Below are positions 2,957 to 22,245 of a stretch of DNA of 22,245 bases, piece by piece. The notes below the pieces were generated by a model. It did no database searches. It saw nothing but the letters and a program-made list of their open reading frames with translations, and was not told the DNA's origin. The position numbers were made by a program, and so were the translations under genes. Positions within the stretch are counted from its first letter, which is position 1. Each line of letters opens with the position of its first letter. The DNA comes from a virus, in the IMG/VR virus record IMGVR_UViG_3300045131_001168, positions 1 to 22,245 of that record; one strand, 5' to 3'.

Positions 2957-5900
2957 GTGGCTACCAATCTTGTTGCCCAGATAGCCAACGAGTTCATTTC
3001 CGGGAACACGGAACATGTCGTTGATGCCGTGACATTCGTTGAGGCATCCTGGGGTCTGGGAATCAACCTCCTCCCTGTCCAGCGTTTCATGCTCAAGGCG
3101 TTTTATGGCATGCCCCTGGACGCAAGCTCCAAGAATATCACGGTTCCCGATATCCTGAATGAGAAGGTCCTCTATACGATGACCGAGCATGAGTTCCTCC
3201 ACTTCCTGAAGGAGGAGGGGCGATGCAATACGGACGTGGTAGAGGGGAAGAACTTCCATGAGATGGTACTGGTCTTGGGTCGGCGCGGTACGAAGTGCCG
3301 GGACATGGAAGACCGCATCGCGACGACTGTCGGTTCTATCACGTTCGGTGAACTGGCGAGAAGATTAAAGGCAGGAGAGAGGATTGGGATTGGAACGTAT
3401 GACCAGTCTACTCTAAAGCATTCAATATCGTATGAGGCAAAGGCTGAGTTCAACGGGGAGGTGGAGTGTTTCGAGGTCGTGACCGGACGTGGGATTTGTG
3501 AAACGTCCTCGTGGAATCATCCTTATCTCGTTTGGCGTGACGCGTGGGAACGTCCTCGTTTTATTGATGCTATCGACCTAATTCCGGGTGATAGAATCTC
3601 GATTGCCGCTTCTACAAAGTTGTTTGGTCCCGGTTCTATTGGGGTAAAGCGGGCCGCTCTTCTTGGTCATTTACAGGGTGATGGTGGGACGACTTGTTCG
3701 GTTGGATACACGACCAAATGTCCGACAATGCTGGCGGACTTTACCGATTTAATCCAATCTGAATTTCCAGGGTATGTGGTCTGCAAAAAAGGTGCGGCGT
3801 CTTGGAGGTTTGGGTATGAGGTCGTTAAAGGTTCGAAACGATTTAAGCAGAATGGCAGTCAAAAAAATGAGGTCCGGGATTGGTTAAGGTCGCTGGGATG
3901 CTTTGGTAAAAAGGCGATTGTCAAGCAGGTACCGGACTGTATCTATCGTGGGAGCCGTGAAGAGATTGCCGCGTTTGTTTCACGGCTCTTTGGTTGTGAT
4001 GGGCATGCTAATGTAGAGAAGACCGTTGGGGTTGGTCATGGTGGGGTGCCGAAGTCTCATGTTGGATTTTGTTCCGCATCGAAGGAATTAGTTGATGGGG
4101 TGCGGCATTTACTCCAAAAGTTTGGGATTCATGGAGTAGTTGGCACTACTGCCGTGACTTGTGACGGGAAGAAGTTTAAGGCATGGACTTATCGAATAGT
4201 CAGACGTGAGTGCCTGGAGAAGTTTAATGAAGAGATTGGGATATTCTCCAAGGAAGTCGGGGTGCGTGGGGTTATAGACGCGGCACGTCTTCGCGGAGAC
4301 TCGAAGGGCGAGTTGGACTGTATTCCAAAGGGGGTTTGGACCTACGTCAAGAAAATTCAGAGGGAGCGAGGTCTTTCGGGGAGTGCTATTTCCGGTGGGG
4401 TGGGAGGTGGCTCAACGGCTCGTATTCGGTGGTCTTATGCTCCAAGCCGGTGGAAGGTTACGGGCTATGGCCATCGCATTCATGATGATTTCTTGACGGC
4501 CATGGGAGAATCCGACGTTCTATGGGACAAGGTTCGGGAGGTTCGTCCAGTCGGGAAGAGGATGACGGTAGATGTTGAGGTGCCCGGCACTCATGTTATC
4601 GGCGGTGATATTGTTTCCCACAACTCCACCCTGGCATCCTGTATCTCGAACTACGAGCTGTACAAGTTGGTGAAGCGGGGAGACCCCGCCAGCTATTATG
4701 GCTTCCCTCAGAATGCTGAAATTTCCATCCTGAATGTGGCTCCGACGGATGACCAAGCTGGTATCGTCTTCGGCATGATTCAGAGCATGGCGTTGAAGTG
4801 TCCCTATCTCCGGGACCGGTCATTGCATCAGACGATGACCTACTTCGACCTTCAGACGGACTCAGACCGAAAGACTCATGGACGGCCTCGGGCGAGTCTG
4901 CTGTCTATCGCTGGTGGTTGCTCGTCCAATGCCCTCCGTGGTCGGAATGCCATTATCGTGATTCTGGATGAGATGGCCTTCTTTATTGACAAGGATAATT
5001 CACGGTTCAGCGGCGGTGAGGTCTACAAGGCTTTGACCCCTTCGATGGCTTCGTTCGGCAAGGACGGCAAAGTGGTCTGTCTGAGTTCTCCTTATGCCAA
5101 GTTCGGTCGGTTCTACGAGCGGTACATGGAGAGCTTCAACGAGCCTGACTATGCCTTGATGTTCCGGATGTATACGGCTCTGGCCAATCCGACGGTTCCA
5201 AGTGAGATTCTTCGGGCTGCCTATCGGCGGGACCGGTCTTCGTTCATGTGTGAATACGGTGGTGACTTCTCCGACCGGGTGACGGCTTGGGTTGAGTTGG
5301 AGTCGGAGTTGAAGAAGTGCGTTGTCTCGAAGCCCCCACCGACGAAAGGGAAGCCGGATACACCCTACTACATGGGTATCGACCTGGGATTCCAGAACGA
5401 TGGGACATCAATCGCCATTGTTCATAGGGAGGGAAAGAAGGTTGTCCTGGACCATGCCGATGTGTGGTTCTCGGGGTCTTCCGATGTATGGGAGTTTGAG
5501 GACAGCATCTATAGCGAGTGTGATAAGTACAAGATGAATGAGCTTCTCCGGATGTCTGATGTAGTCCAGGAAGTCAAGAGATTATGCCGGTGGTTCCCGA
5601 TTAAGAGGGGGATATTTGACCAGTCGAATGGCTATGCCTTGTCGGAGCTGTTGAATGATGCCGGGTTTACCCAATTCGATATGGTTCATTTCAGTGACCA
5701 AACGAATCATGAAGTATACGAGCTGGTCAAGCGCCTCTACTCAGAGTGGTTGATTGAGCTTTACGACCACCCGATTTTGATTCCGGAGATGTTGTCTTTG
5801 GAGGCGACGAGGAGGAACAAGGCACGAGTGGACGTGGCAGCTCCGGACAGGCGTGGAGCGCATGACGATATTTCGGATGCCTATACTCGGGCGGTATGGG

Positions 5901-6100
5901 CTTGCTACAACGTGACTGGGAATAGGACTTCATGCAGGGCTACCGGTGCGGGCGGGATAAGCGGTGGTTCTCCTATTGGCAGGATTGGGGCCGGATGCGC
6001 TCCGAAGGTTGAGTCGCAGAACTCGTTTGCCGTCAAGAGGCTCAAGATGCACGGGCCGAGTCCGCGTCCTTCCGGGCTCCTGCGGGGTGGGCGTCGGTGA
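2957..6100 (+). CDS. terL: Terminase large subunit (packaging ATPase/nuclease), intein-containing precursor
   Basis: The precursor is 1047 residues; removal of the intein (residues 114-556) leaves about 604, a normal length for TerL. TerL drives DNA into the prohead with its ATPase and cuts concatemers with its nuclease. The joined exteins give LVLGRRGTK-S, the deviant Walker A motif of terminases. Walker B is IIVILDEM (D671, E672 of the precursor). The RNase H-like nuclease domain begins at YYMGIDLG (D809), with further acidic residues in GIFDQSNG (D888) and AHDDISDAY (970-974). The end is Gly/Arg-rich. GTG 2957 is taken as start because it lies 4 bases after the preceding stop, though its ribosome site is weak. 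Without splicing the P-loop is broken, so the enzyme should depend on the intein excising itself. Confidence 0.95.
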   Translation: MATNLVAQIANEFISGNTEHVVDAVTFVEASWGLGINLLPVQRFMLKAFYGMPLDASSKNITVPDILNEKVLYTMTEHEFLHFLKEEGRCNTDVVEGKNFHEMVLVLGRRGTKCRDMEDRIATTVGSITFGELARRLKAGERIGIGTYDQSTLKHSISYEAKAEFNGEVECFEVVTGRGICETSSWNHPYLVWRDAWERPRFIDAIDLIPGDRISIAASTKLFGPGSIGVKRAALLGHLQGDGGTTCSVGYTTKCPTMLADFTDLIQSEFPGYVVCKKGAASWRFGYEVVKGSKRFKQNGSQKNEVRDWLRSLGCFGKKAIVKQVPDCIYRGSREEIAAFVSRLFGCDGHANVEKTVGVGHGGVPKSHVGFCSASKELVDGVRHLLQKFGIHGVVGTTAVTCDGKKFKAWTYRIVRRECLEKFNEEIGIFSKEVGVRGVIDAARLRGDSKGELDCIPKGVWTYVKKIQRERGLSGSAISGGVGGGSTARIRWSYAPSRWKVTGYGHRIHDDFLTAMGESDVLWDKVREVRPVGKRMTVDVEVPGTHVIGGDIVSHNSTLASCISNYELYKLVKRGDPASYYGFPQNAEISILNVAPTDDQAGIVFGMIQSMALKCPYLRDRSLHQTMTYFDLQTDSDRKTHGRPRASLLSIAGGCSSNALRGRNAIIVILDEMAFFIDKDNSRFSGGEVYKALTPSMASFGKDGKVVCLSSPYAKFGRFYERYMESFNEPDYALMFRMYTALANPTVPSEILRAAYRRDRSSFMCEYGGDFSDRVTAWVELESELKKCVVSKPPPTKGKPDTPYYMGIDLGFQNDGTSIAIVHREGKKVVLDHADVWFSGSSDVWEFEDSIYSECDKYKMNELLRMSDVVQEVKRLCRWFPIKRGIFDQSNGYALSELLNDAGFTQFDMVHFSDQTNHEVYELVKRLYSEWLIELYDHPILIPEMLSLEATRRNKARVDVAAPDRRGAHDDISDAYTRAVWACYNVTGNRTSCRATGAGGISGGSPIGRIGAGCAPKVESQNSFAVKRLKMHGPSPRPSGLLRGGRR
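3296..4624 (+). mobile_element. Intein with LAGLIDADG homing endonuclease, inserted in the terminase Walker A loop
   Basis: The element is 443 residues, in frame, between K113 and S557 of the precursor. It begins with Cys (C-R-D-M-E-D-R-I-A-T-T, block A) and ends ...DIVSHN before a Ser (block G), as expected for Cys1/His-Asn/Ser+1 splicing. Block B reads SSWNHP, with His188 as the expected catalytic histidine and Ser185 where Thr is usual. Block F is VDVEVPGTHVIGGDI. Two dodecapeptide motifs, ALLGHLQGDGG (D242) and AFVSRLFGCDGH (D348), mark a LAGLIDADG endonuclease domain with both catalytic aspartates kept. The insert is visibly richer in A+T than the flanking exteins, a sign of separate origin. 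It looks intact for both splicing and homing. Confidence 0.93.
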
Positions 6101-6781: not shown

Positions 6782-7360
6782 ATGAAAAAGGTGGAGAAAC
6801 TGAAGAGCGGGGCCGCTCTGTCAAGATTGATGGAGGTGGAGGGGACACTGGCTCGGGCTAAGGCTCGGCAATTAGAGGAAGACCTGGATGGCCTTCCGGA
6901 TGATGACCCTGCGAAGGTGGAGGCTCGGCGTCAGAAGATGATGTTGGGTGGTGACTTGGCGGGGTTGCCGCCAGGGCATCCACTTTTGAAGATATTGGAA
7001 GAGGCCAAGCTCCGGTATGAATCCGGAGAGAAGCTGTCGGCGGAGGAGAGGGCGGAGAAGCAATCCGGACCAGCCGTTCGGAAGGCGAAGAGGCTCGACC
7101 TCAAGAAGAAGGCCGCTCAGGAGCGGGCCGAGGAAGAGAGCAAAACTCAGCGGCGTCGGGCCGCTGCGAAAGGGCTCAAGGGTGCGATGGAGACGATGCT
7201 CGTTTCAGTTCGGACTTTCAAAGACGTTGCGTTACAATCTTCTGAAGCATTCAAGGGTGACGTCCACTCAGTTGCGAAGATTCAGAGGTTGCTGAGGATG
7301 TCTGTTGCGGTTGAGAAATGGATTACTGACGGGTTGTCCGGTGCCGGGAGGATGGCCTAA
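6782..7360 (+). CDS. Charged coiled-coil protein upstream of portal
   Basis: The 192-residue product starts at ATG 6782 behind AAAGGAGG; its TAA shares a base with the portal start (TAATG). Residues about 20-145 are rich in Lys, Arg, Glu and Ala, with stretches such as RKAKRLDLKKKAAQERAEEE that look like a long helix or coiled coil. The final 50 residues are a less charged helical domain (DVHSVAKIQRLLRMSVAVEKWI). I do not recognise a family. Tight coupling to the portal gene suggests a head-assembly or terminase-docking role, which is inference only. Confidence 0.75.
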   Translation: MKKVEKLKSGAALSRLMEVEGTLARAKARQLEEDLDGLPDDDPAKVEARRQKMMLGGDLAGLPPGHPLLKILEEAKLRYESGEKLSAEERAEKQSGPAVRKAKRLDLKKKAAQERAEEESKTQRRRAAAKGLKGAMETMLVSVRTFKDVALQSSEAFKGDVHSVAKIQRLLRMSVAVEKWITDGLSGAGRMA

Positions 7361-9300
7361 TGGCTAAGAAAAGAACGTCTGCTAAGTCTCCTGTCTCTCC
7401 TGAGAGAGCCGAGGCTTTTCTTGGGGGAGTCAAAAGGCCTGCGGTCACGACGGGGAAGGTTGACCCAGTGCGGACCCGTATGGCCAAGAAGGCTACTGCC
7501 TCTATGCCTGGGATGTCCAAACAGGCTGGCATGATGCTGGACAATATCCAGTCGGCTGCCCCGTATCAATCCGGGTTCCGTCTGGATGCGTACCGGACAA
7601 GCTATGCGAATGGGTTGGATAGTCGGTCGGGGGCGTATGACGTTCCGACTTACTTCTCCACCATGAATCAGCAGAACGGTGGACTCATCTATTGGCCGGT
7701 GACCCTTCAAGAAAAGTATTCCTGGTATCGGTATTGGGTCAGGACTGATGCCTATATTGGCCGGGCCATGGAGCTGATGGCCGACCTGCCGATGTCCAAG
7801 CTGACTCTGAACATGCCGAAGATGCCTGGACAGCCGAAGGAGAAGCGGCAAGAGATTCTGGATTTCTTCCACTGGCAGGTGGAGAAGTTGGACCTGTTCA
7901 ATCTCTGCCTGAATATCCTCTGGGAAATGAACTCTATCGGGAATGTTTACATCTTCCATGAATGGGATGATGAGAAGAAAATGTGGAGTAGGGCAGTTAT
8001 CCTTCCTCCCGAAGAAGTCTACATCTTCCAATACCCGTTCTCGGACAACTGCCGGGTGGAGTACAAGCCGGAGAGGCTTCTTTCTTTGGTGAAGCAGAAT
8101 ATGGTCGATGGTAAGATTGCGACGAACAATCAAGCGGGCCAATGCAACCGTGGGGACCTCAATGAGAAGATTCTGGAGGGCATTCCCAGCGAGCTGGTTG
8201 ACATGATTCAGAACGAGGGCTGTATCGTCATGGATACGGACCCATCCACGGGTTCATTCGTCCATCACGTTGCCCGCCGAAAGTCGCCATACCAGGACTT
8301 GGGGGCGAGTGCCCTGGAGCGGGTTCTGGTTCCGATGCTCCAGAAGGAGCATTTCCGGTATACCCAGCTTAGTCTGGCGAGCCGGAATATGACGCCGAAG
8401 AATCTCATTACGGCGGAAGGGCTCATGCCTGAGGAGTTGGAGGAATTGAGGACTCAGGTGGATATGTCCTACATGGACCCTGAGTACAGCATCATCACGA
8501 ATTATCCGGTTGAGTGGCAGCAGATTGGTGCCGACCAGAGGCTCCTTGACCTTCAGCGGGAATATGAGGTTATCGAGAACCAGGTGTTTGCGGCTCTTGG
8601 GACGAATCGGGAATTGTTGATTGGTGAGGGGATGTACTCCAGCAGCAAAATCACCATCGAGATTCTGAACAGCATGTTCATGCTGACTCGTGAGGTGCTG
8701 AAGAACTACATCGAGAAGAAGCTATTCAAGCCGGTGGCGGAAGCGCATGGATGGTTCACCGAAGACAAGAACGGGGTGAAGAAATACTGGTATCCTGAAA
8801 TCAGCTTCAACCGTCTGACCATCCGTGACAATGGGGAAGTCTTCGATAGCCTGTTCCAGCTCTACCAGAAGGGCGGCTTGCCGGTCGATGTGATTTATGA
8901 GCTGTTCAACCTGAATCCGGAACGGATGGCCGAGCAGTTGAAGAAGGATGCTTTCACGGTTCGGGATGCGACGTTCAACCGGATGCTGGAGGAGACGAAT
9001 TCCGAGATTGGTCGGAAGTTGGTGGAAGGTAGTGACGTTGTCAAGAGAGTCATCAAATACCTCGGTTTGGCGGAGCAGGCGGCTGCCAGCGGTGATGGCG
9101 GTGGGCAAGATGGTGGTTTTGGAGGGTTTGGTGGTTTCGGTGGTGGGGCCGATGCCGGGAGTGGGGAAGATGGCGGTGGCGAGGAATCGGGTGGGTCGAA
9201 TGGGGTTCTGGAACAGTTCGCGGAAGAGGTGGCAGACGAGTTGCCGCCCGACGCTTCCGATGAGGAGATAAGGGAAGAGATTAACAGGAAGGTCGAGTGA
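7360..9300 (+). CDS. Portal protein
   Basis: The portal forms the dodecameric ring at one capsid vertex through which DNA enters and to which the tail joins. The 646-residue product has typical phage portal features: TLQEKYSWYRYWVRTDAYIGRAMEL-type helices (residues about 113-140), FHWQVEKLDLFNLCLNILWEMNSIGNVYIFHEW-type wing segments (about 168-205), a PPEEVYIFQYPF strand and, after residue 400, ALGTNRELLIGEGMYSS with the following long stem helix. The C-terminus carries a flexible Gly-rich run (about 580-612) and an acidic helix ending EEINRKVE. GGGAGGATGG lies just before the start. Length, gene order after terminase and before protease, scaffold and capsid, and the motifs agree. Confidence 0.88.
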   Translation: MAKKRTSAKSPVSPERAEAFLGGVKRPAVTTGKVDPVRTRMAKKATASMPGMSKQAGMMLDNIQSAAPYQSGFRLDAYRTSYANGLDSRSGAYDVPTYFSTMNQQNGGLIYWPVTLQEKYSWYRYWVRTDAYIGRAMELMADLPMSKLTLNMPKMPGQPKEKRQEILDFFHWQVEKLDLFNLCLNILWEMNSIGNVYIFHEWDDEKKMWSRAVILPPEEVYIFQYPFSDNCRVEYKPERLLSLVKQNMVDGKIATNNQAGQCNRGDLNEKILEGIPSELVDMIQNEGCIVMDTDPSTGSFVHHVARRKSPYQDLGASALERVLVPMLQKEHFRYTQLSLASRNMTPKNLITAEGLMPEELEELRTQVDMSYMDPEYSIITNYPVEWQQIGADQRLLDLQREYEVIENQVFAALGTNRELLIGEGMYSSSKITIEILNSMFMLTREVLKNYIEKKLFKPVAEAHGWFTEDKNGVKKYWYPEISFNRLTIRDNGEVFDSLFQLYQKGGLPVDVIYELFNLNPERMAEQLKKDAFTVRDATFNRMLEETNSEIGRKLVEGSDVVKRVIKYLGLAEQAAASGDGGGQDGGFGGFGGFGGGADAGSGEDGGGEESGGSNGVLEQFAEEVADELPPDASDEEIREEINRKVE

Positions 9301-9301
9301 T

Positions 9302-11890
9302 ATGGACCTCGCGAGAATTGCTCAGAAGTTGACCGATGAAGAGATTGACCTCCTTGCCGCGAAGGTGAAGGACAAGCTGAAATCGAAGGGTCAATCCGGG
9401 GATGAGACCGTTACTAGCGATGACGGCATGTCCGCTGAAGACTCGGTGACCGGTGAGCAGTCGGATTCTGGGGAGAAGTCTGGTCTGGAAGATGGTGGAG
9501 CCGATGAAGATGGGGGGATGCCCGAGGCTCCGCCGGAGGGAATGGTTATCCTGATGGATGAGGGTATCAAGGCCTCCTTGCGCGTTGCCTTGGAGTTCGA
9601 CACTCGGGAGGAGTTCGACGAGTATAAGAAGACGCATGAATTGTCGCCGAGTACCAAGGTGAAGATTCGGAACGAGGGCGGCGGTTCTGAGAAGAAGGAT
9701 GCTCCTGGTAAGAATCCCGGCAAGGGAGAGAAGGAAGAGGGGGAGCAGAAGACGGGACCACAGGAAGAGAAGCAACCGGAGCAGAAGAAGCAACCGGAGC
9801 AGAATCAGAAGTCGGAAGAGCCGGCCCCTCATGAGAAGAGCTGGCCGAAGTCCCAGTCCGGGGATATGGCACGGCAGGTTGCCATCAAGGACGAGTTGAT
9901 TGGTCAGCTCGGCAAGGATGCTAAGGGCTGGTCTGCCCATAAGCTACATCCCAATCAGATGACTCCCGGAGTATTGGTGCGGTTTCCGGATGGAACGTCG
10001 AAGAAGTATGGAGAGCTTTCCGGGAACGAGAAAGCCCGCGTTGATAAGGCTCTGGATGGAGGACTCGCGGCCCACAAGGGGATGAATGACTACCAGTCGA
10101 CCAATCTGGCTTCCCTTCAGACGAACATAAAGAACAACCTTGCCCTCTACGACAAGAAGGACGTGGTTGAGTCGAAGAATGAGAAGCAGGAGCCGCTGAC
10201 CCGGGAGAACGCATCGGAGATGGCGTCCTCTGTCCGGGACAATGCCAGGAGTGTAGTCCACAAGTATGCGCAATCCATGTCTGGTCTTTCCAGGCCGATG
10301 CTGGAAGCCCATGTGGACAGGATGGCTCAGGCGATAGCCGATGGGGCTACCGATGGGTCGCTGGCCGGGGTCAAGCAGTCTGACTTGGATGAGTTGGTTC
10401 GGGATGACGTGAAGCGGCTTATTCATCAGGAGATTGAGACTCGTCGTCGGTCGTTGGGGGACCACGGGATTCGGCACTCGACTTCGAATGCCGATAGTTC
10501 GATGAAGATGATGGACCAGCTCAAGGCGGCTGGAATCCCGATTACAGGTAAAGACAAGTTGATGGCGCTCACCGTGCAGGCCAACCATGACACTGGCTAT
10601 ACCCTTGGGGCTCCGGCTCTGGATGCTCGGGCTAAGGGTCATCAGGAGCTTTCGTCGAATATCGCGAGTGAGGAGAAGGAGAAGTATTCCAAGGTCTTTG
10701 GTTCCGAGGGTGCGGAGAAGATTCAGGAACTCATAAAGACCCACGATAAGAACATTATCGACTGGGACAAGGACCCGGTTGGCTCCTCTGTCCGCATGGC
10801 TGACATTTCCGCTTTGTTCGGCAAGGACAAGGTTCAAGACCTTTTCATTCGGTCCCCGAGGTCGATGGAGGTGGTTTGCAGGATGAAGCTGGCTCTTGAT
10901 GCGGACCCGGAGAACACGGAGTTGCATGGGGCCTTGAGAAAGCAGCTTCACGGTGTTGTGGATGAGGAGAACTTCGATTCCATCGACAAGGATATGCTGC
11001 ATCGTCAGGTGGATGAGATGACCGCGAATAAGGACTCGCTGGCGTTCACCACCAAGGATGTTCTGGCCAGATACAGTGGTCGGTTGGACGGGTTCAAGTT
11101 CGATAAAGAGAAGAAGGTCATGGACGTGAACATGTCCTATTCTCCTGAGGGTCAGATGGTCGACCAGCTTTTTGGTTCCGAGCTGGCTGCCAAGAAGTTC
11201 AGCAGTTTCGCGGATGACCTTGGAGTCAAGGTCGAGGATGGCAAGATGCCGAACCGGATGACCTTTGGCAAAGAGAAGCCGGTGGTGGCCGTTAACATTG
11301 CCAGATTTGATGAGGGTATGGAGAAGACGGCCACGACGGATGCCATGAAGTCTTTCGCCACCAATACGGCGCGGGAAGGATTCCAGGAGGCCAAGAAGGC
11401 TTTGATTGCCCCTCCGCCTCCGACCAAGACCACGATGAATAAGGCGAGAAAGAAGGTCAAGGCCCAGAAGGGTAAGTTCGACGATGAGGAGTGGGACAAG
11501 GTCGAGAAACTTTTCGAGCAGTTTGCCGATGACCCGGAGAAGCTGGCTCAGGCTCTCGGACGGTTTCCTCTGCTGAAGTCGGAGAAGGAATATCTCCTTT
11601 CGAAGGTTCCTGGTGGGAGTGCGATGGTGGCTCGGGTTGTCCGGGCATTCTTTGTCGAAGACTTGACGGCCAGGGTTGCCGGATGGTTTGTTGCGACCAG
11701 GGGGACTCAGACGAAGCGGAAAGACAAAGATTTGATGTCCGATACGGGTGGTTCCTCCAAGCGCAGGGAGAGGGAGCCAGACCAGAAGCCGCCGAGGGAT
11801 GACGTGAAGAAGCGTTTCCGGACCAAGGATAAACCGGCGGAGACTCGTGACGAAGATGTCGACAAGGACAAAGACAAGGTCAAGGAGTAA
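9302..11890 (+). CDS. Large head-module protein with an embedded HD domain
   Basis: This 862-residue protein follows the portal by one base, with AGGAAGG before ATG 9302. Residues 1-25 (MDLARIAQKLTDEEIDLL) carry the short IA-x-x-L helix seen in several neighbours. Residues about 30-185 are acidic, low-complexity and probably disordered (repeats of EQKKQPEQ). Residues about 380-510 match an HD metal-dependent phosphohydrolase: DHGIRH (H388/H392), NHDTGYT (H429-D430), GHQEL (H447), THDKN and RMADISALFG (D501). Spacing resembles known HD domains. About 770-815 is another helical domain, and the last 60 residues are Lys/Asp/Arg-rich. HD proteins act on nucleotides, but here the domain is placed among virion genes, so it may be a packaged or structural enzyme. 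Substrate unknown. Confidence 0.72.
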   Translation: MDLARIAQKLTDEEIDLLAAKVKDKLKSKGQSGDETVTSDDGMSAEDSVTGEQSDSGEKSGLEDGGADEDGGMPEAPPEGMVILMDEGIKASLRVALEFDTREEFDEYKKTHELSPSTKVKIRNEGGGSEKKDAPGKNPGKGEKEEGEQKTGPQEEKQPEQKKQPEQNQKSEEPAPHEKSWPKSQSGDMARQVAIKDELIGQLGKDAKGWSAHKLHPNQMTPGVLVRFPDGTSKKYGELSGNEKARVDKALDGGLAAHKGMNDYQSTNLASLQTNIKNNLALYDKKDVVESKNEKQEPLTRENASEMASSVRDNARSVVHKYAQSMSGLSRPMLEAHVDRMAQAIADGATDGSLAGVKQSDLDELVRDDVKRLIHQEIETRRRSLGDHGIRHSTSNADSSMKMMDQLKAAGIPITGKDKLMALTVQANHDTGYTLGAPALDARAKGHQELSSNIASEEKEKYSKVFGSEGAEKIQELIKTHDKNIIDWDKDPVGSSVRMADISALFGKDKVQDLFIRSPRSMEVVCRMKLALDADPENTELHGALRKQLHGVVDEENFDSIDKDMLHRQVDEMTANKDSLAFTTKDVLARYSGRLDGFKFDKEKKVMDVNMSYSPEGQMVDQLFGSELAAKKFSSFADDLGVKVEDGKMPNRMTFGKEKPVVAVNIARFDEGMEKTATTDAMKSFATNTAREGFQEAKKALIAPPPPTKTTMNKARKKVKAQKGKFDDEEWDKVEKLFEQFADDPEKLAQALGRFPLLKSEKEYLLSKVPGGSAMVARVVRAFFVEDLTARVAGWFVATRGTQTKRKDKDLMSDTGGSSKRREREPDQKPPRDDVKKRFRTKDKPAETRDEDVDKDKDKVKE

Positions 11891-11895
11891 CCGAC

Positions 11896-12159
11896 ATGGA
11901 CCGGAGGATTCAGGCGATGGCGGAACGGGTTGCCAAGTCGGTTGAGGGTGGGGACAGAGACGAGGCGATGGAGAAGGTTGATGAGGCCGTGGATGCCATC
12001 ATCGCAGCCTTGATGTCCCTGGAGGAGAATCTCCCACAGGTCAAGACGGACTCGGTCCCGGAGAAGGCTGCGGTTGATACCGTGATTAGTCTTCTGAATG
12101 AGGCTGTCAAGCCTTACATGGCGGACGTCGCCAAGGCTTTGGACGTCTTTGAGCGGTGA
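11896..12159 (+). CDS. Small helical protein
   Basis: The product is 87 residues, starting 5 bases after the previous stop with AAGGAG at 11882-11887. It is almost wholly helical and acidic. The N-terminus MDRRIQAMAERVAKSVEGG closely matches the C-terminal MAMAERVANSI of the protease-like protein at 16093-17103 and is one member of the recurring terminal helix. Residues 28-85 are a hydrophobic-patterned helical pair (VDAIIAALMSLEENL, AVDTVISLLNEAV). No enzyme motif. It could be a small internal head or scaffold-associated protein; the function is unknown. Confidence 0.75.
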   Translation: MDRRIQAMAERVAKSVEGGDRDEAMEKVDEAVDAIIAALMSLEENLPQVKTDSVPEKAAVDTVISLLNEAVKPYMADVAKALDVFER

Positions 12160-12193
12160 GTCTTTGATTGTTGCTCTTTCGAGGAGGTGTCGG

Positions 12194-12958
12194 GTGAATC
12201 GGATAAAGGTGGCGAGTGAGATGATTCTGGCGGCAAAGGATATTGCTGCCGCCGTTGAGTTCAAGCATCAATCTTTGATTGGGGTGATGTGGGGGAAGAA
12301 GATTAGAGAGGCACAGGACCGCCAGGGAATCCGTTTTGATTTGGAGAATGATGGCAGTACGGATGACGTGAAAGAAGTAAAGGTCGGTTCTTATAAGGAC
12401 TATGACCACAAGGATAAGCAATATCGTTTTCTCATTCAGGAATGTCAGGCGGGAGGGGATTGGGAGAATCCGGTTTTGTATTATCGGGTACAGGTCCATC
12501 CTAAGGGCTCGACTCCTTATGTTGATGTTTTCGGGTCTGATGATAATTGCATGGTTTATATCCCGATTGGGGGGAATCTGAATTTGGTGGAGACGAAAGC
12601 CTCGAAGGGCGGGAAGTTGTTGGGTCCCACTGGCGGGTCGGAGACGGATGGAGAAAAGATTGATAAGAAAGCATGTAAAGAGGACTTGATTGCTTTCTTG
12701 GAGAAGGTCGTGGCTATCAAGCCGGACAAGGATGCTGAGTATGGTGCCCCGGTGAAATTGGAGTTCAAGAATGGGAAGATTGCAGGGGAGCTTCGGACGT
12801 TTCTGGAGATTCGTCAGGAGGCGCATGCCAGTGGAGAGCATCACCACTTGAAGTTGGTATGTGCGGTTTGTGATGACGTGCAAACTTGTCGGTGTAGTGC
12901 GCCGAAGGTTGAGGTTATTGGAATCTGTGATGATTGTGCCCAGAAGAGGGAGAGCTAA
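12194..12958 (+). CDS. Hypothetical protein with C-terminal zinc-binding cysteine cluster
   Basis: GTG 12194 is chosen because a strong AGGAGG (12182-12187) stands 6 bases upstream; the frame is open further upstream but without a site. The 254-residue product begins MNRIKVASEMILAAKDIAA, an example of the recurring terminal helix. The middle (residues about 70-140) is beta-rich (YRFLIQEC, PVLYYRVQVHP, NCMVYIPIGGNLNLVET). The end has CAVCDDVQTCRCSA...GICDDC, three cysteine pairs that suggest one or two zinc sites. The coding sequence is noticeably richer in A+T than its neighbours, which may mark recent gain. Family not recognised. Confidence 0.75.
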   Translation: MNRIKVASEMILAAKDIAAAVEFKHQSLIGVMWGKKIREAQDRQGIRFDLENDGSTDDVKEVKVGSYKDYDHKDKQYRFLIQECQAGGDWENPVLYYRVQVHPKGSTPYVDVFGSDDNCMVYIPIGGNLNLVETKASKGGKLLGPTGGSETDGEKIDKKACKEDLIAFLEKVVAIKPDKDAEYGAPVKLEFKNGKIAGELRTFLEIRQEAHASGEHHHLKLVCAVCDDVQTCRCSAPKVEVIGICDDCAQKRES

Positions 12959-12960
12959 AG

Positions 12961-13356
12961 ATGGCTGTCAACGAGAGAATTCAGAGAACTATCAATGACC
13001 TTCCCAGTGGGCAGTTGGCTCCCTCCCAGGCTGCCAGGACGGAATGGTATCCGGGGAAAGCCCGGTCCAGGGCTGGAGATATGAATTGGGAGAAGCATTA
13101 CAGGTGTCCTGTTGGATTGCCGCAACTTGAGGAGATGGGTCCTCTGGAAGTGGAGCATATTCGGGTGGAGAAATTGGGAAGGTCCTCTGTGTCGGACCAA
13201 ACGATTCCGGCTCCGACGGTGACGGGGACCAAGACCACGACCATCACGGCCCCGATGGTGTGGGGAGTTACCACTCCTGTTCATGTGGTGACCGAGACTG
13301 AAACGGCGGAAGAGCCTGCCATTCTGGAGAGGAATGCCGGGAGCGACGGGGTATGA
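12961..13356 (+). CDS. Hypothetical small protein
   Basis: The 131-residue product is read from ATG 12961, just after the previous stop and behind GAGGGAG. The first 60 residues are mixed (ERIQRTINDLPSGQL, EWYPGKARSRAGDMNWEKHYRC). The second half is Thr/Val/Pro-rich (TVTGTKTTTITAPMVWGV), typical of extended beta or linker segments in virion proteins. It overlaps the next gene by ATGA. No known domain was recognised. Confidence 0.7.
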   Translation: MAVNERIQRTINDLPSGQLAPSQAARTEWYPGKARSRAGDMNWEKHYRCPVGLPQLEEMGPLEVEHIRVEKLGRSSVSDQTIPAPTVTGTKTTTITAPMVWGVTTPVHVVTETETAEEPAILERNAGSDGV

Positions 13357-13709
13357 CGAGGCCAGTTACCGACCCTGAAATTTCAGACCCAAATCCTCAC
13401 AACCTGACTTTCCCGTATCCGTTGATTGGGAATGTGAAACGGAGGAAGGGGCAAGGTTGTACGGTTTGTGTTCATTATGGGTATTGTCCGGCGGTTTACT
13501 GGTTCAAGCGGTATGGCCAGGATAAGCTCGATGATTGGAATGGGATTCAGTGTGGGACTTGGAGTACGAATCCGGCGGACAAGGCGACCGTAGTTGCCCA
13601 GCCTGACCTGGATGAGAACCAATATATGTATGAGCAGGGCATCGGGTCGGAGGCCAACCGCAATGGTATCACGGACCCGGTGACTGGAAGCCCGAGGGAC
13701 CAGAACTAA
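13353..13709 (+). CDS. Small cysteine-containing protein
   Basis: The product is 118 residues and overlaps both neighbours (ATGA before, TAATG after), so it is translationally coupled. It holds GCTVCVHYGYCPAVYW followed by GIQCGTW: a C-x2-C-x5-C...C arrangement that could bind one zinc or an iron-sulfur cluster. Flanks are rich in Asp, Asn and Pro and lack hydrophobic helices. Not recognised; it is the second of three cysteine-cluster proteins in this stretch. Confidence 0.72.
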   Translation: MTRPVTDPEISDPNPHNLTFPYPLIGNVKRRKGQGCTVCVHYGYCPAVYWFKRYGQDKLDDWNGIQCGTWSTNPADKATVVAQPDLDENQYMYEQGIGSEANRNGITDPVTGSPRDQN

Positions 13710-14119
13710 TGGCTGCTGGACGCTCATTTCGGGAAGTGATTGACAAGGGGATTGACCGGGCTCTCTTCATCCAGCAACAGGAGGAGAAGGCTCCGAAGCG
13801 TTTACCTCGAAGGACGGGGGAGAAGCAGAAGACCGGGACCTTGTTCGCGAAGAGGAATAAGCGTTTGACGATTCGGGAGGCTGCCAAGCGTCTGGTTCAG
13901 GTTGTGATGACCTACAAGAAGACGACGACTGGTGAGGTGAAGAAGTATATCGTGGCTCCCTACAGCTACAGGTACCGGAAGTTGAAGGTGGGGTTGAGGA
14001 AGATGCTGTTCGCTTTCGATACGGCTGATGGGCATATCAAGGGGTTCAGTCTGAAGGATATTCGGAACGTGGCTCTGACGGACAGGAAGTTTAAGCCGAA
14101 GTGGGAAGTTGAAATCTGA
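13709..14119 (+). CDS. WYL-like domain protein
   Basis: The 136-residue product starts at a TAATG overlap. The basic N-terminal half (residues 1-65) has RLPRRTGEKQKTGTLFAKRNKR. Residues about 65-136 (VVMTYKKTTTGEVKKYIVAPYSYRYR, LRKMLFAFDTADGHIKGFSL, KDIRNVALTDRKFKPKWEVEI) follow the order of an SH3-like WYL domain: a Y strand, a V-x-P-Y strand, a readable-from-side A-F-D strand, a G-F-S-L-x-D-I strand, then F-x-P-x-W. WYL domains bind nucleic acid or ligands in bacterial regulators. Here there is no typical winged helix in front, so a virion or nucleic-acid-binding adaptor role is possible. The fold call is moderate. Confidence 0.65.
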   Translation: MAAGRSFREVIDKGIDRALFIQQQEEKAPKRLPRRTGEKQKTGTLFAKRNKRLTIREAAKRLVQVVMTYKKTTTGEVKKYIVAPYSYRYRKLKVGLRKMLFAFDTADGHIKGFSLKDIRNVALTDRKFKPKWEVEI

Positions 14120-14159
14120 TGGTGATGGCCAACCACTTTCACCTTGTCGTCTAGTCTTG

Positions 14160-14176
14160 AGAATTTCTTTATAATT
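14160..14176 (+). promoter_or_regulatory. Promoter-like box, identical to that at 784-800
   Basis: AGAATTTCTTTATAATT repeats exactly the box 13.4 kb upstream, with TATAAT at 14170-14175, 34 bases before the next start codon. The surrounding 84-base gap is the longest between 6165 and 17844. A -35 hexamer at normal spacing is not evident. An exact 17-base match in two intergenic gaps, both at the head of a gene group, is unlikely by chance. Confidence 0.6.
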
Positions 14177-14203
14177 TTAATACGAGTAACAGGAGGTTCC
14201 GCA

Positions 14204-14992
14204 ATGCGAGAACGACGAGGCAGCACTTTTTGGCCCAGTGAGCTTGGGCTGATGATTGAGCAGTTCAGTCTTGGTGACATCGTTTATCCGGTCACCGTGG
14301 GGACGAACTTCACGGGTGTCGTGATTGAGGTCAATCCGGCTATCAATAAGGTCATGGTTGCTTGGGGCGGTGGTTCCGAGAAGCAGCATGACCCCGATGA
14401 GATTCAGCTCCATCCTTTCGTCTCCGAGGAGATTAAGGAGAAGATGGCCTGCGTCAAGACCGCCAGATTGAAGGCTGCGGACTGTGGGTGCGCTCCGGAG
14501 GGGAGTCCCTGGTATGACGAGGAGGACGGGATTGCCGTTTCTGGGTCGAGGGTTGCCCGGAGGATGCGCGGTTCGGATGAGTTGGTGATTCCTCCCGACT
14601 TCCAGGGTGACCCGGAGACGCATGGGATTGATGAGCCTCGTGGTGGTGGGTTCAGCATCATGAAGGACTTGGCTCAAGACCTCCACAAGGAAAGCATCAA
14701 TGCGGCTGAGGAGCCGCTTCGGTCTCGTCGGGCCATGTATTGGTGCGCTCCTGGTCGGACTTACCGTCTGACTCGGGGAGAGCAGAATGGTGGGGATGCG
14801 ACCTGTCCGAAGTGCGGTGGGACGATGTCGGTTGAGCCGTATCAGCGGAAAGAGAAGATGTTCCGTTGCCCGGGGTGCGGGTTCAAGGTTTCGACTGGGA
14901 AAGTCGTGAAGCAGAAGATTGAGATTGAAGTCGATACGGATGGTTCCGTTGAGGTTGATGTTACCACGGCTGGGCGGCGGGCTTCAAGGTAA
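14204..14992 (+). CDS. Zinc-ribbon protein with N-terminal SH3/KOW-like segment
   Basis: ATG 14204 has AGGAGG eight bases before it; the upstream extension of the frame crosses the promoter box and is rejected. The product is 262 residues. Residues about 20-70 (FSLGDIVYPVTVGTNFTGVVIEV, NKVMVAWGGGSE) look like a small beta-barrel of the KOW/SH3 type. Residues about 181-232 hold YWCAPGRTY...ATCPKCGGTM...MFRCPGCGFK, two CPxC knuckles of a zinc ribbon. The last 30 residues are a beta-rich tail. Both modules often contact nucleic acid or protein partners, but the family is not recognised. Confidence 0.75.
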   Translation: MRERRGSTFWPSELGLMIEQFSLGDIVYPVTVGTNFTGVVIEVNPAINKVMVAWGGGSEKQHDPDEIQLHPFVSEEIKEKMACVKTARLKAADCGCAPEGSPWYDEEDGIAVSGSRVARRMRGSDELVIPPDFQGDPETHGIDEPRGGGFSIMKDLAQDLHKESINAAEEPLRSRRAMYWCAPGRTYRLTRGEQNGGDATCPKCGGTMSVEPYQRKEKMFRCPGCGFKVSTGKVVKQKIEIEVDTDGSVEVDVTTAGRRASR

Positions 14993-15634: not shown

Positions 15635-16093
15635 ATGGACGAGAGTCATATCGCGCGAGAACTGATGGCCATAGCAGGGAAGTTGGCGGGAGACGACGCC
15701 AACTTCCTTACTGCTTTCAAAAGGCTGGCCAGTCGGTATGGATGCGTGGACGTCAAAGCCCGGAATGGCATCTTCGAACTCAAGAAGGTTGTGGCGTCCG
15801 ATGAGAAGGGCGAGGACGTTGTCGGCTATGTGGTTCGAGGAGAGTTTATGGACCGGCCAGGGGGGCTTTGGTTCGAGGCGAATTTCTGGGTTGGAGTCGT
15901 TGGGGAGATTGGTATAGACCTTTCCTCCGAGTCTACCTATGGGGCGACGATTCCGAATGGGTCAGAGGCTTTGATGGAGCGAGAGCTTCACTCGGAGCTG
16001 TTCAAGGGGATTGAAGAAGAGGCCCGTGACTTCATGAGCCGTCATGGACGGAAGTTGCGGGAATTTGTTCCAGGCCTTGTTGGAGGTGTGTGA
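15635..16093 (+). CDS. Hypothetical protein upstream of the protease
   Basis: ATG 15635 (GGAG at 15624-15627) is preferred over the adjacent TTG. The 152-residue product begins MDESHIARELMAIAGKLAG, the clearest intact copy of the recurring terminal helix. The body is alpha/beta (NGIFELKKVVASDEKGEDVVGYVVRG, LWFEANFWVGVVGEIGIDL) and ends in a charged helix. Its TGA overlaps the next start (TGATG), so the pair is coupled. A role in the prohead core is possible from position, but nothing in the sequence shows an activity. Confidence 0.75.
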   Translation: MDESHIARELMAIAGKLAGDDANFLTAFKRLASRYGCVDVKARNGIFELKKVVASDEKGEDVVGYVVRGEFMDRPGGLWFEANFWVGVVGEIGIDLSSESTYGATIPNGSEALMERELHSELFKGIEEEARDFMSRHGRKLREFVPGLVGGV

Positions 16094-17103
16094 TGTCGGG
16101 TGTTCGCAGATGTTCCAGCGAGGGATGTATGACGGCTGCTGTTGGCAGGACCGTCAACCTTGATATGCCACTGGCCTCCGTTCTCTTGGACCCTGCCAAG
16201 GATTGGGACCGTCTGACCCTTGGTCGGAATCGGACGGCTGGGGCTAGGAATATCAAGGTAGACTGGAACACCTTCACTCAGGACCAATTCCTCTTCTCTC
16301 ATTGCTCCATCGTGGCGTCTGTGAAAGCGGAGGCTGATTGCTTCCGGATTGACCCGGTTTGTTCTCCCTTGGTGAATAAGAATGGGAATGCCTGGACGAA
16401 TCCGGTTTTGCTGGCCACCTTCCGGAGCTTTATTGGTGGCGAGAACTATGTGGAGCATATCCAGGTACCGGAGCTTTCCAAGGGGAAGTTGCTGGATGCG
16501 GTCATTCGGCCAGTGACCTACCACAATGAGAAGTTGAAGAAGGATGCCGACGTCTACTTCGTTGACATCCTGGTTGCCACCAACCGGAAGCACGGCAAAC
16601 TCTGCAAAAGGATTGCCACCGGGGAGCTGAATACTCTCTCGATGGGCTGTCTGGCTGATTGGGTGCAGTGCAGTCGGTGCGGGGTGATGTTGAAGGACGG
16701 GGAAGAGAACTGCGAGCATATCGACCATCAGCTCCTCTCGACCTACATCGACGATGATGGGGTGGAGCGGGTTGTCGCCGAACTCTGTGGACGGTGTATT
16801 CCGGACAAGGATGGCAACCTTGTTGGGGACCCGGAGAGTTGCAAGTTCATCGAAGCATCCTGGGTGGAGAAGCCGGCCTTTGAAGGGGCGGTTCTCAATC
16901 ACTTACTTTCGGAGCTTCCGAAGGCTGCTCACATTCTGGAGTTCTCGTCTTCCCGACTGGAGGAGACGGTTGAGCAGATGTTCCGGATGCGGGTGGCGGA
17001 CACTCATGGGATGGTGACTCTTCGGGTTGCCATGTATGAGTTGATGAGGCGGCGGCGGATGGCGATGGCGGAACGAGTTGCCAATTCGATTCGGAGCCGC
17101 TGA
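16093..17103 (+). CDS. Probable prohead maturation protease (T4 gp21-like) with zinc-ribbon insert
   Basis: ATG 16093 has TGGAGG 6 bases upstream. The 336-residue product contains the pattern of the assemblin-like prohead proteases: NPVLLATFRSFIGGENYVEHIQVPE (candidate catalytic His122), SKGKLLDAVI, VYFVDILVATNRKHGKL, IATGELNTLSMGC (candidate Ser183) and SCKFIEASWVEKPAFEGAVL. The enzyme cleaves scaffold and capsid proteins during head maturation. Between the Ser and the last block is an insert with C193-x2-C196, C207-x-H209 and C232-x2-C235, a likely zinc site. The C-terminal helix ends RRRRMAMAERVANSIRSR, another copy of the terminal helix. Place between portal and scaffold/capsid agrees with T4 order. 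Catalytic residues are my reading, not proven. Confidence 0.62.
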   Translation: MSGVRRCSSEGCMTAAVGRTVNLDMPLASVLLDPAKDWDRLTLGRNRTAGARNIKVDWNTFTQDQFLFSHCSIVASVKAEADCFRIDPVCSPLVNKNGNAWTNPVLLATFRSFIGGENYVEHIQVPELSKGKLLDAVIRPVTYHNEKLKKDADVYFVDILVATNRKHGKLCKRIATGELNTLSMGCLADWVQCSRCGVMLKDGEENCEHIDHQLLSTYIDDDGVERVVAELCGRCIPDKDGNLVGDPESCKFIEASWVEKPAFEGAVLNHLLSELPKAAHILEFSSSRLEETVEQMFRMRVADTHGMVTLRVAMYELMRRRRMAMAERVANSIRSR

Positions 17104-17106
17104 CGG

Positions 17107-17844
17107 ATGCACGAGATTCTCTATTATGCCGCTGTGGGATTTGCTGCCCAGATGGTTGATGGGACATTGGGCATGGCCTATGGCGTCAGTGCATCTACTC
17201 TTCTACTTGGTGGAGGGATGGCTCCTGCTGCGGTGAGTGCGACTGTCCATGCTGCTGAAGTGTTCACGACAGGGGCTTCTGGAGTTTCTCACAGGTTATT
17301 TGGGAATGTGGATGAGAAGCTCTTTATGAGGTTGGTTGTTCCGGGAGTTATTGGGGCGGTGGTTGGTGCCTACATCTTGGCCAGTCTTCCAGGGGAGAGA
17401 CTCAAGCCATTGATTGCAGCTTATCTCTTATTCATGGGGCTTCTGATTGTTTACAGGGCACTGAGGAACATGTCGGAGAGGGTGGTTACGACTCATTTGG
17501 TTCCTCTTGGGTTCTTTGGAGCTTTTGTGGATGCGATTGGTGGGGGAGGATGGGGGCCGGTGGTCACATCAACCTTGGTGGCCAGGGGGAATCCGATTCG
17601 GTCTACGGTGGGGACGGTAAATGCGGTGGAGTTCTTTGTGACGGCTGCGGCATCGGTGACTTTTATCATGATGCTGGGGGTGGGGTTCTGGAAGGTGATT
17701 GTTGGACTTGCGTTGGGAGGATTGCTCGCGGCTCCATTGGCCGCTTTGGCATGCAAGAGACTTCCATTGCGGCCATTGATGTTTGTGGTTGGAGTTCTGG
17801 TTGCTGTGTTGAGTATGAGAACACTCATGAGTTCGATGCTGTGA
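17107..17844 (+). CDS. TauE/SafE-family membrane transporter
   Basis: The complete 245-residue polytopic membrane protein has about eight hydrophobic segments. It shows the two half-repeats of the family: residues 8-30 VGFAAQMVDGTLGMAYGVSAS and ATVHAAEVFTTGASGVSH, then GFFGAFVDAIGGGGWGPVVTSTL (about 137-160) and VNAVEFFVTAAAS. Relatives export sulfite, sulfoacetate or other sulfur-containing organic anions from bacteria. It starts 3 bases after the protease stop and is followed by a 40-base gap, so it is co-transcribed with head genes. No truncation or frameshift is seen. It would sit in the host membrane and change sulfur or anion flux during infection; the substrate is not readable from sequence. 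Confidence 0.9.
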   Translation: MHEILYYAAVGFAAQMVDGTLGMAYGVSASTLLLGGGMAPAAVSATVHAAEVFTTGASGVSHRLFGNVDEKLFMRLVVPGVIGAVVGAYILASLPGERLKPLIAAYLLFMGLLIVYRALRNMSERVVTTHLVPLGFFGAFVDAIGGGGWGPVVTSTLVARGNPIRSTVGTVNAVEFFVTAAASVTFIMMLGVGFWKVIVGLALGGLLAAPLAALACKRLPLRPLMFVVGVLVAVLSMRTLMSSML

Positions 17845-20336: not shown

Positions 20337-21197
20337 ATGGCTCTTGATAACCAGACCAAGTACGAGCTCATCAGCCAGCACATCCGGACTGCCGCTGGCC
20401 GTCAGAAGCTGGCGAGCAGCATGATTCAGCCCCTGCGTCGTCGCCGGGACTACACCTCGGTTGGCCGCAAGGCGTTCTTCGTCGAGCAGCTCCCCGATGG
20501 TGCCCTGCCCATCTACGACAAGGACCCGGCCATCACCGCCTACGTCGTGGGCGAGGAAGGCGAGAACATCGTCGCGGTGGCCAAGCCCAAGCGCGTCCTG
20601 TTCCCCCTGTTCGAGATTGCCAGCAATCCCGAAATCCAGCTCACCGAAATCAAGCAGCGGCGTTTCGACCTCATCGAGCGCAGCGTTGACCTCGGCAAGA
20701 GCGAAATCCAGGCTGAAGAGGACCGCAAGACCTTCGCCGTCATGGATGCCCTGGCCGCTGACCCGACCAACCCGAATCCCCCGATTCCGGTGACCGGCAA
20801 CCTGACCGCCAATGCCCTGGCCGATGCGTTCGCCAGCATCGAGCGGAGCGACATCCGTGTCGCCACCGTCTTCCTCAATGCCAAGGACTATGCCGACCTG
20901 CGCAAGTGGGACCGGGATACCCTCGACATCGAGACCCAGGCCATCCTGCTGAAGACCGGGCTCATGGCCACCCTCTGGGGCGCCAAGCTCATCGTCAGCC
21001 GCATCGTCCCCGAAGGCACTGTCTACTGCTGCGGCGAGGCCGAGTTCTTCGGTCGCATCCCCGTCCGCACCGAGTTGACCGTCCTCAGTGCCGATGACCC
21101 GAAGAACCGGCTCATCGGTTTCAGCATGTTCGAGCAAATCGGCATCGGGGCATACAACCCGTTTGCACTCCAAGTGCTTGAGATCACGCGTGTTTGA
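20337..21197 (+). CDS. Major capsid protein (HK97 fold)
   Basis: The 286-residue product has the layout of HK97-type shell proteins: a helical N-terminal segment (residues 1-30), an E-loop-like region with basic RRRRDYTSVGRKAFFVEQLPDG (about 35-57), AYVVGEEGENIVAVAKPKRVLFPLFEIASNPEI strands, a spine helix (LIERSVDLGKSEIQAEEDRKTFAVMDAL), a P-domain/A-domain with VATVFLNAKDYADLRKW and a closing strand set RIPVRTELTVLSADDPKNRLIGFSMFEQIGIGAYNPFAL. It lacks a long N-terminal scaffold domain, in keeping with separate scaffold genes upstream. It is the most codon-biased gene here and is followed by a strong terminator. Confidence 0.87.
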   Translation: MALDNQTKYELISQHIRTAAGRQKLASSMIQPLRRRRDYTSVGRKAFFVEQLPDGALPIYDKDPAITAYVVGEEGENIVAVAKPKRVLFPLFEIASNPEIQLTEIKQRRFDLIERSVDLGKSEIQAEEDRKTFAVMDALAADPTNPNPPIPVTGNLTANALADAFASIERSDIRVATVFLNAKDYADLRKWDRDTLDIETQAILLKTGLMATLWGAKLIVSRIVPEGTVYCCGEAEFFGRIPVRTELTVLSADDPKNRLIGFSMFEQIGIGAYNPFALQVLEITRV

Positions 21198-21300: not shown

Positions 21301-21318
21301 GGGTGTATTATAAATGGA
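21301..21318 (+). promoter_or_regulatory. Possible promoter for the downstream endonuclease gene
   Basis: After the terminator, GTGTATTATAAATGG is AT-rich and contains TATTAT and TATAAAT. Read on the other strand it gives TTTATAAT, as in the boxes at 784 and 14160, so orientation is uncertain. Some promoter is expected because a strong terminator stands just upstream. Confidence 0.3.
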
Positions 21319-21334
21319 GGACAATGGAGGTAGT

Positions 21335-22245
21335 ATGAAAATGGTGGTATGTTCCGAGTGCGGTGGGATGGTGGTTGACGGGAAGCAGAAATACAAGCAT
21401 GCGAGGAGTTGTCCGACTTATAAGCAGGAGGGGATTGACCATGTCGTGTGTCGGGAGTGTGGGTATCGGTCGCCCATGTTGTCGAAGCATCTAAAACTTC
21501 ATGGGTTGACTGGTAAGACCTATGTGGAGAAATGGCCGGAAGCACCGATTGTGGTTCGGGGTACCGTGTCTAGACAGGTGTGCTCTAATGTTGGAAAGCA
21601 TGAGAAGATGGCCGGTGAGCATCGTGACTCGGTCGTGTGTGTGAAGTGTGGGGATGTTTATCGAGCGAGGCATGGTCATGGGCATTGGCAAGATTGTATC
21701 GGTTCACATCCGGCTCTTTACAAAGATGGGGTGGACTTTGTTCGATGCCCGGAGTGTAACAAGCCGATGCTGCGTCTCGGAGCGCATTTACACATGGTAC
21801 ATGGATGGGACAATGACCGGATAGCATTGGAGGCGGGGCGTGGGTTGAAGTTGATGGCTGAGTGTGTGGTCGAGAAGTGGCGAGAGAGGCAGGACTTCAA
21901 AGCTGCACAGGTGAAGAGGGAGAAAACCCACATGGAGAGGTATGGGTTTCCCAATCCGTTCGCTGACCCGGAGGTAAAGGGGAAGATACTGGAGACGCAT
22001 CGACGGAGATATGGGGTTGACCATCCGATGCAGAATGAGGAAGTATTCATGAGACAGAATGCTTCAGCCAATGATGGTCCATCGGCGCAGGAGTTGTTTT
22101 TCGACAAGCATACGTGCGACAATGTCGTTTTCACTGGGTATGGGGGCCGGTTCATTCGGACGAAGACGGGGGTTCATAAGTACGGTCGGGTGATTAAGGA
22201 CTTGAACCCTGATTTCATGGTTTTACCGGATAACGTTCTGGAGTC
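21335..22245 (+). CDS. Free-standing Vsr-like homing endonuclease with zinc fingers (3' end outside window)
   Basis: The frame is open from ATG 21335 (GGAGG 4 bases before; ATG 21314 in frame lacks a site) to the window end, 303 residues. Two copies of a two-finger unit are visible: C6-x2-C9...H22...C26 plus C39-x2-C42...H52-x3-H56, and C102-x2-C105...H117...C121 plus C138-x2-C141...H151-x4-H156. The HLKLHG and HLHMVHG ends resemble MucR/Ros fingers. Residues about 195-245 hold two NUMOD-type repeats (HMERYGFPNPFADPEVKGK, HRRRYGVDHPMQNEEV). GPSAQELFF and LNPDFMVLPDN at the end match the start of a Vsr/EDxHD nuclease fold. Such enzymes spread by cutting cognate alleles; here the likely target is near the capsid gene. 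Confidence 0.8.
   Translation, partial: MKMVVCSECGGMVVDGKQKYKHARSCPTYKQEGIDHVVCRECGYRSPMLSKHLKLHGLTGKTYVEKWPEAPIVVRGTVSRQVCSNVGKHEKMAGEHRDSVVCVKCGDVYRARHGHGHWQDCIGSHPALYKDGVDFVRCPECNKPMLRLGAHLHMVHGWDNDRIALEAGRGLKLMAECVVEKWRERQDFKAAQVKREKTHMERYGFPNPFADPEVKGKILETHRRRYGVDHPMQNEEVFMRQNASANDGPSAQELFFDKHTCDNVVFTGYGGRFIRTKTGVHKYGRVIKDLNPDFMVLPDNVLE

Follow-up and report, generated by a model that had tools for sequence, protein, structure and literature searches.

The 22.2-kb virus record analysed here (the window) contains a head module in which the gene following the portal gene encodes an 862-aa protein, predicted from the DNA to carry an HD phosphohydrolase-like metal site. This raises the questions of whether the site is genuine, to which kind of enzyme it would belong, and why it should be encoded among head genes. 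The module comprises a terminase with an intein, a portal, the 862-aa protein, a protease and a major capsid protein:

2957-6100, + strand: terminase large subunit, interrupted by an intein (phrog_2, E=1e-21; LAGLIDADG_3, E=4e-14)
7360-9300, + strand: portal protein (phrog_16240 portal, E=2e-29)
9302-11890, + strand: portal-adjacent multidomain protein with an HD domain (P0001, 862 aa; intact open reading frame)
16090-17103, + strand: head maturation protease (phrog_18299, E=6e-12)
20337-21197, + strand: major capsid protein (phrog_2522, E=1e-51)

The relatives of the window portal include the portals of Bacillus phage G, Tunturiibacter phage Tunturi_5 (309 kb) and an uncultured 485-kb phage, and the window virus therefore probably belongs among the large phages. 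A membrane protein of the TauE/SafE sulfite-exporter family (17107-17844, + strand; PF01925, E=6e-35) is encoded between the protease and capsid genes, an unusual location for a transporter gene. The terminase intein (within 2957-6100) carries a LAGLIDADG endonuclease, the portal of a related contig (L003) is also split by an intein-like insert, and a homing-endonuclease-like open reading frame (21314-22243) lies directly 3' of the capsid gene and runs off the end of the window.

Organization of the post-portal protein

The portal gene ends with TGA at 9298-9300 and the start codon of P0001 (ATG at 9302) follows one base after this stop, with AGGAAGG upstream; P0001 is translationally coupled to the portal. 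Orthologues lie directly after the portal in six other viral contigs, all recovered by a search anchored on the portal; a locus search with P0001 as the lone query returned no relatives. The protein is divided as follows:

9302-9865, + strand: N-terminal helix-like segment, then acidic, then K/E/Q/P-rich arm (aa 1-188; from sequence)
9869-10171, + strand: small conserved domain (aa 190-290), kept in seven orthologues and modelled with short strands and helices
10289-11026, + strand: HD domain (aa 330-575; 13-sequence alignment, AF2 model, HD-fold matches)
11069-11296, + strand: post-HD segment (aa about 590-665), which also aligns in distant relatives in the 13-sequence alignment
11693-11887, + strand: charged C-terminal tail (RKDKDLMSDTGG..KPPRxD..), common to post-portal proteins without HD and found also as a separate small open reading frame

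The low-complexity acidic and basic arm spans aa about 35-185 and, from its sequence, is probably disordered. Conservation per 20-aa block is 24-49% in the N-terminal segment and arm versus 58-76% in most of the HD core, within which the stretch around aa 441-480 is less conserved (41-51%). The original prediction framed the HD site with disordered acidic and basic arms and an N-terminal tag helix; the arm and a helix-like segment are present, but they are poorly conserved. Its description of the whole as a structural protein is not borne out by anything found here.

Metal ligands and fold of the HD domain

The predicted site, at 10430-10830 of the window, corresponds to aa 377-509 of P0001 and includes the following positions, each invariant in 13 of 13 aligned sequences:

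10463-10477, + strand: H388 and H392 in the motif LGDHGIRH (H392 putative first metal ligand; H388 possible extra acid or ligand)
10586-10591, + strand: H429-D430, the HD dyad
10640-10642, + strand: H447, putative second-metal ligand
10742-10744, + strand: H481, putative second-metal ligand
10802-10804, + strand: D501, putative final metal ligand

H388, H392, H429-D430, H447 and D501 are exactly where they had been placed, and only a further histidine given as about 474 is wrong, the conserved residue being H481. All seven post-portal orthologues, the window protein included, keep D387-H388, H392, H429-D430, H447, H481-D482 and D501. The domain alignment adds six distant loci in other architectures (two of them, L047 and L048, being copies of one type), and across the resulting 13 sequences, which are 25-55% identical to the window domain, the six ligands H392, H429, D430, H447, H481 and D501 are invariant together with D387 and H388; D482 is variable, being Q or S in L046 and L047. 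There are 10 histidines in aa 330-600, and the five motif histidines are invariant among the 13 homologues, which have 22 invariant columns in total, an excess over chance by the hypergeometric distribution (5 His of 22 invariant columns; P = 4e-4).

Single-protein searches of Pfam, PHROGs, NCBIfam and PDB sequences with P0001 gave no meaningful match, and neither the window protein nor seven close members reach the Pfam HD (PF01966) gathering score. The homologous domain of L046, which aligns with the window family through the whole HD domain, does pass it (27.1 versus 22 bits).

An AF2 model of the domain, with the 13-sequence alignment as input, has a pLDDT of 87.5 and a pTM of 0.85. In this model the first histidine is at the start of a helix, the HD dyad comes right after a helix, the next histidine starts the following helix, the one after that (H481) is just after a helix, and D501 is inside the last core helix. 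The predicted core is all-helical, and the modelled ligands match the helix positions that are canonical for HD enzymes (PMC4159591). The 50 structural matches listed in the PDB are almost exclusively HD-fold, with Z scores of 9.8-12.9, the top value being slightly lower than the caution level for helical folds; we take them to be PPX/GppA C-terminal domains, cyclic-nucleotide phosphodiesterases, SidE phosphodiesterase domains, the HD hydrolase 2pq7, Ddi2 and SAMHD1. Foldseek E-values are not significant alone (best 0.09 in the PDB), and with a larger model the best matches among viral models are phage HD hydrolases. The proposal of an HD metal site is thus upheld both by the invariance of its H/HD/D positions in homologues and by a predicted HD-type fold that puts the ligands where the helices of HD enzymes canonically carry them. 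The evidence for the fold and the metal site is good, and the domain is almost certainly a real metal-dependent HD metalloenzyme; we strongly infer both the fold and a two-metal site, and a dinuclear center is very probable.

As to the kind of HD enzyme, the order H...HD...H...H...D is diagnostic of dinuclear sites, as in YqeK (H21, H50, D51, H83, H109, D127; PMC8177086). The window family has the same six-ligand set as these YqeK-type hydrolases (Ap4A hydrolase) but differs from them in that no sequence similarity is detectable in the PDB sequence search, the domain of about 230 aa lies inside an 860-aa head-region protein, and an extra invariant D-H pair precedes the first ligand by four to five residues. 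HD phosphatases of the YfbR/YqeK/SpoT subclass typically carry an arginine about three residues before the first histidine of the motif; it is absent here, position -3 being G389 relative to H392 and L385 relative to H388, and the invariant arginines are R383 and R391. Two other assignments were rejected: HD-GYP, there being neither an HH pair (the residue after H481 is D, Q or S) nor a GYP in the aligned loop, and the SpoT-type mononuclear site, against which the extra histidines argue. Alarmone hydrolases likewise differ from the window family, which has two extra histidines.

Class I cyclic-nucleotide phosphodiesterases rank high among the structural matches, at 8-16% identity, but lack the two extra histidine ligands. 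They carry an HNxxH motif whose histidine is the general acid, and H388, four residues before the first ligand, resembles it; this resemblance would favour a phosphodiesterase. The HD domain of class II CCA-adding enzymes, which are encoded next door in relatives, has its HD, second and third histidines in register with the window family in a profile alignment that is very weak (probability 4.6%) and suggestive only, and phage CCA enzymes pass Pfam HD whereas the window family in general does not.

Proposed exchange at the post-portal site, and distant relatives

An HD domain follows the portal in 7 of the 13 genomes of the window's portal clade and is absent in the other six (L012, L013, L014, L016, L018 and L021); the domain is therefore dispensable. 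The family HD model found no HD domain elsewhere in the related contigs lacking one after the portal; it detects all 13 positive records, but these include its own members. The post-portal genes of the cultured relatives, gp15 of phage G and gp8 of Tunturi_5, have no HD motif.

The last 65 or so residues of P0001 are more widely shared. They recur in the HD proteins, at the ends of a 2132-aa (L018) and a 625-aa (L021) protein, and in separate short open reading frames (82 aa in L016). The tail profile was built from 12 sequences including these copies, most of which are found by phmmer with P0001 alone, the non-HD or separate copies matching at E values of 3e-15 to 2e-20. In a sister clade, a short similar stretch (KKPPRxDL) stands behind topoisomerase IB in post-portal proteins that also carry HAD_SAK_1, 2H or CCA-adding domains; the 12-member profile is not significant on these topoisomerase IB proteins, and a common origin is unproven. 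We read the post-portal site as a place of enzyme exchange while a tail persists.

Several features of the same region in relatives are recorded here. Portal-adjacent or near-portal topoisomerase IB proteins occur in large phages (L004, 11936-13462; L024, L027-L030, L032-L036), variously with HAD_SAK_1, 2H or CCA-adding domains. A gene for a CCA-adding nucleotidyltransferase lies shortly after the post-portal gene in four contigs (L003, 14756-16234; L011, 12607-14160; L019, 13275-14903; L013, 10776-12305) and is not there in the window. Free-standing treble-clef or endonuclease-like open reading frames separate the tail open reading frame from the upstream part in L022 (11990-13276) and L012 (10711-12027), and the copy of the latter in L002, from the same contig, contains DUF4379.

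The HD domain follows the portals of two clades, that of the window and that of L044, and on the portal tree the starred branches require the HD label to have changed at least twice. It also occurs in other settings: in one open reading frame with Phage_Mu_F (L049; E=1e-22), in one with the polyvalent-protein domain LPD1 (L047; E=3e-22), and within a protein of 2095 aa that also has an HNH domain (L046). In L043 a Mu-type portal lies about 6 kb upstream of the HD gene, which follows an open reading frame with three ADP-ribosyltransferase domains and precedes a gene that by eye resembles a Mu I-type protease, and in L045 it comes after an open reading frame that by eye is terminase-like. In the distant contigs most terminase families escaped detection.

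Two of these loci have further features. Copies of a GGPGSGxHGHAGRPGxxGGS peptide (L043, 3722-9251) precede the ADP-ribosyltransferase domains and the HD protein, and the peptide has the look of a tag common to separate payloads. In L044 the HD gene is followed immediately by a 2534-aa open reading frame (6982-14583) with 2H, CCA-adding, zincin-like and topoisomerase IB parts, assigned by eye and by a P0013 match.

With P0001, P0011 or either of two distant HD domains as query, tblastn gave no match in a phage collection of 50,697 records. A first scan of genome contigs found no HD-family match, and a second found one protein in a Patescibacteria MAG (L071) and one Cryobacterium match (L072), the latter judged spurious because a 6-phosphogluconate-dehydrogenase-like gene occupies that place on the opposite strand. 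The Patescibacteria protein (L071, 3-3308) is over 1100 aa long, has the same HD domain and has pyrimidine-biosynthesis-like neighbours; it is either a cellular relative or a product of contig mixing.

A possible role at genome entry

Enzymatic domains fused to MuF or portal proteins, and ADP-ribosyltransferases near head genes, have been described in surveys as likely packaged and injected effectors (PMC5512222, PMC9503650). The window protein resembles such polyvalent and MuF- or portal-linked effectors (PMC5512222) in being multidomain, in its head-gene context and in having relatives fused to Phage_Mu_F or LPD1; it differs in that it adjoins the portal without being fused to it and itself contains no MuF, LPD1 or other recognised hallmark polyvalent domain. 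The HD-related terms searched for are absent from the main text of the polyvalent survey and of a MuF-toxin survey (PMC5512222, PMC5576092). Because the domain recurs with its ligands unchanged in head-region proteins of unrelated phages, its distribution suggests that these phages take it with them into the host, as a weapon or a shield.

On balance we favour a head-associated, probably virion-delivered early effector of the polyvalent/MuF type that hydrolyses a nucleotide-type substrate. P0001 would be made together with the head proteins, be held in or on the capsid by its conserved C-terminal tail and flexible arms, and enter the host along with the DNA. There its central domain, an active-looking dinuclear HD phosphohydrolase or phosphodiesterase, would hydrolyse a dinucleoside polyphosphate, a cyclic di- or oligonucleotide, or some other nucleotide involved in defence or stress. 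Delivery in the virion is probable from the portal adjacency and the MuF, LPD1 and ADP-ribosyltransferase associations of relatives. A nucleotide signal as substrate is a guess from the class of ligands and is somewhat doubtful. A review warns that the sequence of an HD enzyme does not reveal its substrate (PMC8177086).

The main rival is an active HD enzyme that works late inside the infected cell, in nucleotide supply or in the repair of nucleic-acid ends at packaging, and that stays out of the virion. Neighbouring or equivalent genes of relatives do encode nucleic-acid enzymes, among them a CCA-adding nucleotidyltransferase whose gene immediately follows the HD gene (L003, L011, L019), HAD_SAK_1 plus topoisomerase IB, and a 2H phosphoesterase; many of these could be delivered just as well, however, and the presence of the same domain beside MuF, LPD1 and ADP-ribosyltransferase partners in unrelated phages fits delivered effectors, such that we regard a late enzyme as rather unlikely.

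Two further readings are possible but unlikely. A catalytically dead domain forming a purely structural part of the portal vertex would accord with the portal-adjacent position and the disordered charged arms, yet all of the ligands are invariant down to 25% identity and close relatives keep the portal without the HD domain, which is thus not needed for the head; we consider this very improbable, and the conserved ligands likewise disfavour the option in the original prediction that the enzyme had become structural. Dinuclear sites are also used by HD-fold oxygenases of the MIOX/PhnZ/TmpB type (PMC8177086), but none is among the 50 structural matches listed, which does not exclude one, and the domain is found in phage conflict and head contexts where phosphoesterases are usual; an oxygenase is the least probable of these readings.

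The favoured delivered effector has partial parallels in jumbo phages. According to a jumbo-phage survey (PMC7824862), HD-GYP and HD-alarmone phosphodiesterases of the same fold occur in large phages, are predicted to act on signalling nucleotides and are regarded as counter-nucleotide defences, and an HD domain is also fused to an RNA polymerase subunit. The window family differs from these in lacking the HH pair and GYP and in being embedded in portal- or MuF-linked proteins, an arrangement that the consulted passages of the survey do not describe. Head-associated effectors and phage HD enzymes are each known, and what is new is their combination, with a dinuclear HD family outside the searched libraries.

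More speculatively, and with less confidence, this could be a new dinuclear HD family serving as a head payload of large phages, with a constant portal-adjacent KPPRxD tail in the window's clade, interchangeable payloads and degradation of a host nucleotide signal at DNA entry. The payloads on the tail would then be either HD domains or proteins of uncharacterised kind; in the sister clade a similar tail stands behind topoisomerase IB. Pfam, PHROGs and NCBIfam as searched lack the family, four different queries did not find it in the 50,697-record phage collection, and annotation therefore misses it; further payloads can be looked for simply with the invariant LGDHG[IL]RH signature and the C-terminal tail. 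Most phage counter-defence enzymes known to degrade nucleotide signals are made once infection has begun; if delivered in the head, this HD enzyme would be at work before the host can raise its alarm.
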